Shown here piece by piece: positions 6,960 to 9,639 of a stretch of 64,000 nt of DNA (its first letter is position 1; each line of letters starts with the position of its first letter). A model generated the notes under the pieces. That model was not told where the DNA came from. It saw only the letters and a program-made list of their open reading frames with translations, and did not search any database. A program made the position numbers and the translations under genes. Origin of the DNA: Candidatus Thermoflexus tengchongensis (GTDB taxonomy: Bacteria; Chloroflexota; Anaerolineae; Thermoflexales; Thermoflexaceae); NCBI GenBank assembly GCA_016842085.1, contig JAEVEX010000042.1, positions 1 through 64,000 on the forward strand, given 5' to 3'.

Positions 6960-6964
6960 GGCGT

Positions 6965-7425
6965 GTCGAATGAATTCGACCTCGAGAGGCCTTCGGCCGA
7001 TGGCCGGCCTGCGCCGGCTGAAAAGCCTTTTCGCGTGGGCGCGGGCCGATGCCCGGCGTGGGGGGAGCGTCGAATGAATTCGACCTCGAGAGGCCTTCGG
7101 CCGATGGCCGGCCTGCGCCGGCCTGAACGCCTTTCGCGTTGGCGGAGGCCGATGCCCGGCGTGGGGGGAGTGTCGAATGAATTCGACCTCCAGGGCCTTC
7201 GGCCGGTGGCCGGCCTGCGCCGGCCTGAACGCCTTTCGCGTTGGCGAAGGCCGGCACCTGGCGCGAAGCGCCTCCGAGGACCGATTTCAATCGGGGCCAT
7301 CGGCCGACGCCGGGCGTGGGGGAGCGTCGAATGAATTCGACCTCGAGAGGCCTTCGGCCGATGGCCGGCCTGCGCCGGCCGAAAAGCCTTTTCGCGTGGG
7401 CACGGGCCGACGCGGGGTGCGAAGC
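6965..7425. repeat. Four-copy GC-rich palindromic repeat cluster
   Basis: Four related units begin at 6965, 7069, 7172 and 7326, each opening with the palindrome GTCGAATGAATTCGAC. This is followed by a segment with nested inverted repeats (AGGCCTTCGGCCGATGGCCG and similar) and GCCTTTTCGCG or GCCTTTCGCG. Spacing is 104, 103 and 154 bases, so the units are nearly tandem. The region has open frames on both strands, but the proteins are low-complexity translations of the repeat. It resembles REP-type intergenic elements and separates the oxidoreductase from the convergent metG. Confidence 0.85.
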
Positions 7426-7550
7426 GCCTGGTGGGGCCGATTTCCGATCGGCGCGAGGGGCAGAGGGATTTTTGTGCCGGCGAAGGCCGACACCTGGCGC
7501 GAAGCGCCTCACGAGGCCGATTTCCAATCGGCGTGACGGTCGGTCACGCC
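7281..7550. repeat. Second short hairpin family beside metG 3' end
   Basis: The hairpin CCGATTTCnnATCGG occurs at 7281-7294, 7437-7451 and 7517-7531, each preceded by a copy of GCGAAGCGCCT. A further 8-bp inverted repeat with arms GGCGTGAC (7530-7537) and GTCACGCC (7543-7550) spans the metG stop codon. None has a clear U-run. They may still act as transcript ends for metG, which reads into them. Confidence 0.6.
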
Positions 7551-9316
7551 GTCGGTTGTCCCAGGCGGGCTCGTTCTTCTTCCGCTCGCGCCTCGTCGAT
7601 TTTCTCAAACAGCGGGCGGATCTCCCCCAGGCGCTGGCCTGGCGGCAGCCGGCTGGGCTCCCAGCGGACCCGGGGATCGGCTTCGTAGGTGAGGGCGAGG
7701 TGCTCCCGCGTCCGCTCCGCCACGGGCCGGACGATCAGGCGCCCGACGAGATCCCCTTCATACCCCAGCATCTCATGGACCCGCTGGCTGGAGAAGGGGA
7801 GGAAGGGGGCGAACATCACTTTGAGGCTGTCGATCGCCCGCAGCGCCACGTAAATGGTCGTCCCGGCCCGGGTTCGATCCTCCCGGATCTCTTTCCAGGG
7901 CTCGCGTTCGTTGAGGTAGCGGTTCACCTCCGCGGCCAGCCCCATAACGGTCTCCAGGGCCTGCCGGAAGCGACAACCCTCGATCAGCCGCCCTACCGTC
8001 TCAAAGGACACATCGATCCGGGCCAGGATCTCGGCGTCCCGTGGCTCCATCAGGCCGGGCATGGGGACTTCGCCGTCGAAGTGGCGGGCGGCGAAGGTGA
8101 GGACGCGGTGGACCAGGTTCCCCCAGATGGAGAGGAGCTCTTCGTTGTTGTGGCGGATGAAATCGATCCAGCGGAACTCCGCGTCCTGGGTCTCCGGCAT
8201 GATCGCCGTCAGGTAATAGCGGAGGGCGTCCACCGCGTAACGCTCCGCCGCGTCCAGGGCCCAGACCGCCCAGTTGCGGCTGGTGGAGAATTTGTCCCCC
8301 TCCAGGTTCAGGAATTCGTTGGCCGGCACATCGTAGGGCAGGGTCAGGCGTTTGGAGGGATCCTCCTCATACAGCCGCTCGGTGCCGAGAAGCTGGGCGG
8401 GCCAGATGATGGTGTGGAAGGGGATGTTGTCCTTCCCGATAAAGTAGACGATTTTGGCCCCCGGATCATACCACCAGTCCTTCCAGGCCTCCGGATCTCC
8501 GGAGAGAGCGGCCCATTCGATGGTCGCCGAGAGATAACCGATGACGGCCTCGAACCACACATAAAGCACCTTGCCCTCAAACCCCTCCAGGGGAACCGGG
8601 ATTCCCCAATCCAGATCCCGGGTGATGGGGCGCGGCTGGAGCCCCTGCCGGATGTAGTTGAGGGTGAAGGTGAGCACATTGGGCCGCCAGTATCCTTTGT
8701 CGCGCAGATAGGCCAGGAGGGGCTCGGTGAAGGCGGGCAGGTTGAAGAAATAATGTTCGGTCTCCCGCAGCACCGGCACGCTCCCGTCGATCCGGCTGCG
8801 GGGGTGGATCAGCTGGGTGGCCTCCAGCAGCGTCCCGCAGCGTTCGCACTGATCCCCCCGGGCCCGCTCATAGCCGCAGATCGGGCACGTCCCCTCAATG
8901 TAGCGATCCGGAAGGAAGCGCCGGGAGACCTCCGAGTAGAACTGGCGCTGGGTTTGTTTGAAGAGATAGCCCTTCTCTAGGAGGCGCAGGAACATATCCT
9001 GGGCGACCCGGTGATGGTTCTCCGTGTCGGTGTGGGTGAAGAGATCGAAGGAGATGCCGTATTTCTGCCAGGTCTCCAGGAAGACCTGATGATAGCGCTC
9101 GAACAGCGCCCGCGGCGACACCCCCTCCCGATCCGCCTGGACGGTGATGGGGGTTCCATGGGAATCCGACCCGGAGACCATCAGGACCCGGTTGCCCTTC
9201 AGGCGGTGATAGCGGGCGAAGATGTCGGCCGGGAGATAGGCCCCGGCGATGTGCCCCAGATGCAAGGGGCCATTGGCGTAAGGCCACGCCACACAGACCA
9301 GCACCTTTTCCGCCAT
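7544..9316 (-). CDS. metG: Methionyl-tRNA synthetase
   Basis: This 590-aa cytoplasmic class I synthetase charges tRNA-Met with methionine. The HIGH motif appears as HLGH (residues 19-22) and the KMSKS loop as KFSTS near residue 342. A zinc knuckle, CPICGYERARGDQCERCG, lies near residues 140-158. There is no C-terminal tRNA-binding extension. The start follows AGGAGGTG. The upstream 300 bases hold a promoter, a short Met-containing leader peptide and a terminator, so expression is probably attenuated in response to Met-tRNA supply. It converges with the oxidoreductase across the palindromic repeats. Confidence 0.97.
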   Translation of the reverse strand: MAEKVLVCVAWPYANGPLHLGHIAGAYLPADIFARYHRLKGNRVLMVSGSDSHGTPITVQADREGVSPRALFERYHQVFLETWQKYGISFDLFTHTDTENHHRVAQDMFLRLLEKGYLFKQTQRQFYSEVSRRFLPDRYIEGTCPICGYERARGDQCERCGTLLEATQLIHPRSRIDGSVPVLRETEHYFFNLPAFTEPLLAYLRDKGYWRPNVLTFTLNYIRQGLQPRPITRDLDWGIPVPLEGFEGKVLYVWFEAVIGYLSATIEWAALSGDPEAWKDWWYDPGAKIVYFIGKDNIPFHTIIWPAQLLGTERLYEEDPSKRLTLPYDVPANEFLNLEGDKFSTSRNWAVWALDAAERYAVDALRYYLTAIMPETQDAEFRWIDFIRHNNEELLSIWGNLVHRVLTFAARHFDGEVPMPGLMEPRDAEILARIDVSFETVGRLIEGCRFRQALETVMGLAAEVNRYLNEREPWKEIREDRTRAGTTIYVALRAIDSLKVMFAPFLPFSSQRVHEMLGYEGDLVGRLIVRPVAERTREHLALTYEADPRVRWEPSRLPPGQRLGEIRPLFEKIDEARAEEERARLGQPTA

Positions 9317-9390: not shown

Positions 9391-9424
9391 TGATAAATAA
9401 AAACCGCCGGCCGAGGCCGGCGGT
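9391..9424 (-). terminator. Intrinsic terminator (attenuator) upstream of metG
   Basis: On the minus strand ACCGCCGGCC, two loop bases and GGCCGGCGGT form a perfect 10-bp stem (9424-9403), followed at once by TTTTTATTTAT. It lies between the leader peptide and the metG start, about 75 bases before the ATG, so it must be read through for metG to be expressed. Confidence 0.85.
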
Positions 9425-9460
9425 CAGCGGGCGAAAACAGACCCGCCCGTCGGGGGGGCC

Positions 9461-9526
9461 TCAGGCCCCCGACCGCGAAGCGAATCTCCTCATCATCAGA
9501 GGGGAAACGATCGGGGTGAAGGTCAT
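9461..9526 (-). CDS. metG leader peptide with tandem Met codons
   Basis: This 21-codon frame begins ATGACCTTC, ends at TGA (9463-9461), and is preceded by a strong GGAAGGAGGG site. Codons 11-12 are ATG ATG, giving the segment VSPLMMRRFASRS. It lies about 75 bases downstream of a promoter, and its last codons form the 5' arm of a stable GC hairpin (about 9477-9450). Upstream of the metG terminator, this is the arrangement expected for ribosome-mediated attenuation, where stalling at Met codons would alter folding. GCGGTC at 9476-9471 can pair with GACCGC at 9425-9420 inside the terminator stem. The function is inferred from arrangement only. Confidence 0.6.
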   Translation of the reverse strand: MTFTPIVSPLMMRRFASRSGA

Positions 9527-9610
9527 CGATCTGCCCTCCTTCCAGCCAGGGCGCTGTGGGATTCCCGCCTGGAAGTTACGCCGCTGGCCTCTTCCCGGGG
9601 CTTTTTAAGT

Positions 9611-9639
9611 ATTGTAATGAGATCGATAACGGGATGCAA
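9611..9639 (-). promoter_or_regulatory. Promoter of the metG leader transcript
   Basis: On the minus strand TTGCAT (9639-9634), a 17-bp spacer and TACAAT (9616-9611) form a sigma-70-type promoter. It fires into the leader peptide, attenuator and metG. It lies downstream of the glmU stop, so metG need not depend on glmU transcription. Confidence 0.6.

Follow-up and report, generated by a model that had tools for sequence, protein, structure and literature searches.

A probable methionine leader-peptide attenuator upstream of metG in Thermoflexus and other Anaerolineae

The window analysed here is the whole stretch of 64,000 nt from the hot-spring bacterium Candidatus Thermoflexus tengchongensis (phylum Chloroflexota; contig JAEVEX010000042.1, positions 1 to 64,000). 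Between glmU and metG, the original prediction, made from the letters alone, had placed a promoter, a ribosome-binding site, a short reading frame with adjacent Met codons 11 and 12, a hairpin over the stop codon and a terminator, and had read the whole as a probable Met leader-peptide attenuator of metG. Each of these elements is confirmed to the base and lies on the minus strand, in the 5' to 3' order promoter, Shine-Dalgarno site, 21-codon ORF, stop-codon hairpin, terminator and metG. The features are the following:

11148-9778, minus strand: glmU, encoding GlmU (NCBIfam match over the cut-off)
9611-9639, minus strand: promoter, TTGCAT (9639-9634), 17-nt spacer and TACAAT (9616-9611), read directly, downstream of glmU
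9535-9540, minus strand: Shine-Dalgarno site AGGAGG of the leader peptide, with the ATG 8 nt further on, read directly
9461-9526, minus strand: leader peptide ORF of 21 codons, MTFTPIVSPLMMRRFASRSGA and stop
9491-9496, minus strand: tandem Met codons 11-12, ATGATG, presumed regulatory from the conservation of Met
9480-9486, minus strand: segment 1, +7 to +13 from the last Met codon, pairing with segment 2
9471-9476, minus strand: segment 2, GCGGTC, at +17 to +22 relative to the last Met codon, the antiterminator strand
9449-9473, minus strand: GC-rich hairpin GTCGGGGGCC-TGA-GGCCCCCCCGAC, whose loop holds the stop codon
9420-9425, minus strand: segment 3, GACCGC, which opens the 5' arm of the terminator and pairs with segment 2
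9395-9425, minus strand: intrinsic terminator GACCGCCGGCCTCGGCCGGCGGTT followed by TTTATTT, comprising segments 3 and 4 (stem 9425-9402, U-tract to 9395)
9328-9323, minus strand: Shine-Dalgarno site AGGAGG of metG itself
7544-9316, minus strand: metG, methionine--tRNA ligase, the presumed controlled gene (NCBIfam NF001100 at 597.6 bits and TIGR00398, both over the cut-off)

The -35 hexamer of the promoter is weak, with 3/6 consensus positions, and the promoter falls below the threshold of a consensus scan; the hexamers and their spacing are identical in a second Thermoflexus genome (G008), and counterparts occur as TTGCAT-18-TAGAAT in G007 and TTGCGC-18-TAGAAT in G002. The terminator stem, which had been described as a perfect 10-bp stem, does contain 10 bp, one of them a G-U end pair, so that it is not strictly perfect. 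Just downstream of metG, at 6963-7540 of the window, the list of open reading frames contains a repeat unit encoding 'SNEFDLERPSADGRPAPAEKPFRVG...' in several frames.

A DNA search recovered the leader from eight of nine Thermoflexus genomes, in one copy each and always upstream of metG, a second match in G004 being weak (24 bases, E 0.007). The original prediction had named the comparison of relatives as its check and a lack of conservation of the peptide or its tandem Met codons as evidence against it; adjacent Met codons are kept in 7/8 leaders, the exception, G002, having M.P.I.M instead. In its N-terminal part the peptide is freely variable; most leaders end in MM-RR followed by RSGA and the stop codon, the Arg codons alternating between AGG-AGA and CGA-AGA. 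The terminator is kept in all eight leaders and the stop-codon hairpin, which may act as a pause hairpin or as a competitor of the antiterminator, is nearly invariant across the genus. In G005 (Candidatus Thermoflexus sinensis; L010 / L235), a stretch of additional DNA, some 300 nt long and in part palindromic, separates the terminator from metG, a point against the attenuator reading; the leader is intact.

Beyond the genus, the metG upstream regions of about 155 distinct Anaerolineae genomes were sampled. Many contain a short ORF with MMM, MM, MPMRMP, MVMP or MAMR that usually ends 19-40 nt before a terminator; such Met-run leaders, whose sequences are unrelated, stand before metG throughout the class, spanning more than a dozen family-level groups. 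For counting, an unselected set of 62 non-redundant, terminator-bearing Anaerolineae metG leaders was used, and an ORF was scored when it contained MM or MxM and ended 10-70 nt before the terminator, a criterion under which G002 (M.P.I.M) is negative. Such an ORF was found in 50 of the 62, against a mean of 1.5 and a maximum of 5 in 100 dinucleotide shuffles, and the equivalent count for other amino acids gave nothing comparable in these leaders, Arg coming next with 35 against 18 expected. The automatic choice of ORF was imperfect, with L043 and L069 looking spurious; L069 was omitted from the scans of Met-offset complementarity and of ribosome position described below, and both were omitted from the test of the segment 1:2 hairpin. 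In the rest of the phylum, about 58 metG upstream regions yielded few candidates only, the clearest (G444 and G423) belonging to one family.

A separate group of eight Anaerolineae metG loci (L021, L027, L034, L035, L036, L037, L146 and L167) has no Met-run leader and carries instead the conserved peptide motif (Y)RQASA(A/V)(K/T)GxM(G/R)G, followed in most of them by a G-rich hairpin. Codon differences among these loci lie mainly at third positions, which is why the peptide itself seems to be conserved. A degenerate form of the pattern gave seven matches in 396 genomes of the class, all upstream of metG, and a reversed-pattern control gave none; no Rfam match was obtained in the six loci of this group that were scanned. 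The motif is possibly an arrest peptide.

The alternative pairing put forward for the window, 9476-9471 with 9425-9420, is exact (GCGGTC:GACCGC), and class-wide the same segment covaries with the terminator arm. When the 45 nt that begin 9 nt after the first base of the final Met codon were paired with terminator 5' arms, a leader's own arm was preferred to those of other leaders (z -5.7, 0/2000 permutations as good), the leaders sharing one phylogeny and not being independent, so that permutation counts are not strict probabilities. Complementarity to the own arm is concentrated at window starts of +17 to +22 relative to the last Met codon, each of these offsets beating all 300 permutations. 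Counted from the first base of the codon in the A site, the leading edge of a ribosome lies about 12 nt downstream, and the peak at +17 to +22 falls immediately beyond what a ribosome stalled at the last Met would cover. Segments 1 (about +7 to +14) and 2 form a hairpin of their own: across the class, the combinations native to a leader fold more stably than permuted combinations (z -3.5, 1/5000). In the window, a ribosome stalled at Met12 would cover segment 1.

Compensatory changes had also been proposed as a check; class-wide, covariation is seen for the segment 1:2 hairpin and for the antiterminator, the support from folding being uneven within Thermoflexus. In one subgroup the segment 1:2 stem has a CGUG loop and several compensatory changes, as in ACTCGC/GCGAGT (L068) and CCCGC/GCGGG (L044). 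In Thermoflexus itself this hairpin is weak, at 0 to -3.8 kcal/mol, and the antiterminator of G007 reads GCAGTC, with one pair broken. The MMM/PW subgroup (for example L094, L068, L044) has, in addition, a conserved CCGTGG three codons past the last Met that complements CCACGG or CTCACGG located a few nt upstream of the terminator, a third pairing with moderate permutation support (z -2.8).

Folding was then related to ribosome position, with the leading edge set at the 12 nt given above, by a scan of transcripts cut at the terminator loop, in which the free energy needed to hold the terminator 5' arm single-stranded, before the 3' arm is made, was computed. Over 50 leaders this cost averaged 6.9 kcal/mol when the last Met codon occupied the A site and 7.5 and 7.1 kcal/mol at +1 and +2, respectively, against 3.0 kcal/mol at the stop codon and 4.9 kcal/mol without a ribosome (last Met versus stop codon, Wilcoxon p 2e-5 over the 50 leaders). 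The difference between Met and stop positions was 3.84 for the own arm and 1.87 +/- 0.30 for permuted arms. The window leader gave 8.5 kcal/mol at each of Met11 and Met12, against 1.7 at the stop codon. Among seven Thermoflexus leaders, Met stalling was clearly favoured in three (G000, G003 and G004) and not in the remaining four (G008, G002, G005 and G007). In complete transcripts the terminator is always the thermodynamic winner, and its probability has no discriminating power; the switch therefore has to be kinetic. Since the stop-codon hairpin competes for GCGGTC in most Thermoflexus and is a possible pause signal, kinetic tuning of the switch by the genus is conceivable.

Several of the features by which ribosome-mediated attenuators are recognized occur together, and they make up the four-segment architecture of such elements, with methionine as the amino acid to be sensed: an ORF with its own ribosome-binding site, conserved cognate codons, a terminator and, on the class-wide evidence, a 2:3 antiterminator at the stall distance and a 1:2 hairpin. 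The conservation, the enrichment in Met and the own-arm pairing support the reading that had been proposed, and we infer with considerable confidence that the element is a ribosome-mediated transcription attenuator which senses the charging of elongator tRNA-Met and controls metG. The presumed course of events, tentative as to the exact folding pathway in Thermoflexus, would be the following. Transcription would start behind glmU and a ribosome would translate the leader. With ample Met-tRNA, it would reach the stop codon and cover segments 1 and 2, so that the terminator (3:4) would form and transcription would end before metG, which amounts to premature termination in vivo. When Met-tRNA is short, ribosome occupancy of the leader would change, the ribosome stalling when its A site reaches Met11 or Met12, with its leading edge some 12 nt downstream; segment 1 would be masked, and segment 2 would be available for pairing with the 5' arm of the terminator. 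With segments 2 and 3 paired there would be no terminator, and metG would be transcribed, that is, starvation would induce readthrough.

It has also to be considered that the ribosome might respond not to slow decoding of Met but to a sequence-specific arrest peptide, or to the conserved Arg codons, as the persistence of MMRR and of the RSGA ending in Thermoflexus and the mild enrichment in Arg could suggest. Across the class, however, the peptides have little in common beyond the Met run and the distance from it to the pairing segment, and the Arg and Pro codons downstream coincide with GC-rich pairing segments, which makes this explanation improbable.

Control of metG by a T-box, a SAM riboswitch or another ligand- or tRNA-binding RNA, with the ORF being incidental, would have precedents within the same genome. 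The covariance model of the T-box (RF00230) gave seven matches there (L001-L007), all below the Rfam cut-off, which lie before trpS, valS, alaX, pheS, trpE, thrS and at what we take, from reading its sequence, to be an aminotransferase locus; that of the SAM-I riboswitch (RF00162) gave three sites (L230-L232), two of them above the cut-off, with matches at genes that we presume, again by reading, to be a metB/metC-like gene and an archaeal-type metK. None of these matches is at metG. Moreover, no Rfam family reaches its gathering score in the window, in agreement with the earlier statement that no T-box consensus was found, and in 20 related loci scanned with Rfam, a tRNA was the only match. 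At relaxed thresholds the window returned sRNA matches only, which were at chance level and driven by the terminator hairpin, and they were discarded. The leader sequence is variable, and what is retained is the Met codons, their spacing and the own-arm pairing; control by a binding RNA is thus very unlikely. That the terminator merely ends transcription of glmU, which does lie upstream on the same strand, and that the small ORF arose by chance, is hardly credible, as the terminator stands about 350 nt beyond the glmU stop codon and follows a conserved promoter, the number of Met-run ORFs before the terminator far exceeds chance expectation, and in other genera the upstream neighbour varies (those genes being judged by reading their C-terminal sequences) while the order leader, terminator, metG is constant.

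Ribosome-mediated attenuation by Met codons, as favoured here, raises a difficulty of its own, since the start codon of the leader also needs Met-tRNA and severe starvation should therefore block translation of the leader. It is conceivable, though we regard it as rather doubtful, that the leader reads elongator Met-tRNA against initiator fMet-tRNA, metG being switched on by a moderate shortage, through stalling at the Met codons, and off by a severe one, through failure to initiate the leader, which would give a bell-shaped response.

Among known systems, PheM is the leader peptide of pheST in gamma-proteobacteria. The metG leader resembles it in placing a peptide with cognate codons and a terminator before a synthetase gene, and differs from it in sensing, as proposed, Met instead of Phe, in lying outside the Proteobacteria and in being unrelated in sequence. 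The leader-peptide attenuator of pheST has been described or predicted, and classical attenuators have been predicted by comparative genomics for trpS and leuS of Streptomyces (PMC1262725). The latter are likewise attenuators before synthetase genes that were predicted by comparison of genomes, and they differ in concerning Trp and Leu in few species. For methionine operons in Actinobacteria, no conserved RNA structure was reported (PMC1262725). In bacilli, according to another survey, histidine leader peptides precede hisS paralogues, which extends leader-peptide control of synthetases outside Proteobacteria and Actinobacteria, for His and in Firmicutes; metG and Chloroflexi are both unmentioned in the main text of that survey (PMC2965389). 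T-boxes are similar in being sensors of tRNA charging before synthetase genes, and are used for other synthetases in the same genome; unlike the metG leader, they bind tRNA directly and need no ORF. In the literature covered, mostly non-subscription journals, no Met leader peptide, metG attenuator or Chloroflexota leader-peptide attenuator was found; an earlier prediction is possible, and a methionine leader-peptide switch seems to be previously undescribed.

On these data, methionine would join the amino acids that leader-peptide attenuation senses, and the Chloroflexota would, as far as found, be newly included, in one of their major classes. A single genome would then use three RNA strategies, with metG under a leader peptide, other synthetases under T-boxes and genes of methionine metabolism under SAM-I riboswitches. 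The leaders, dozens in number and diverged, keep Met codons and antiterminator a fixed distance apart and constitute a natural data set for the geometry of the ribosome footprint and for the evolution of attenuators. The system also poses the puzzle of Met codons that report starvation in a leader whose own start needs Met-tRNA; the bell-shaped response, if true, would be unlike that of the Trp, His or Phe leaders.
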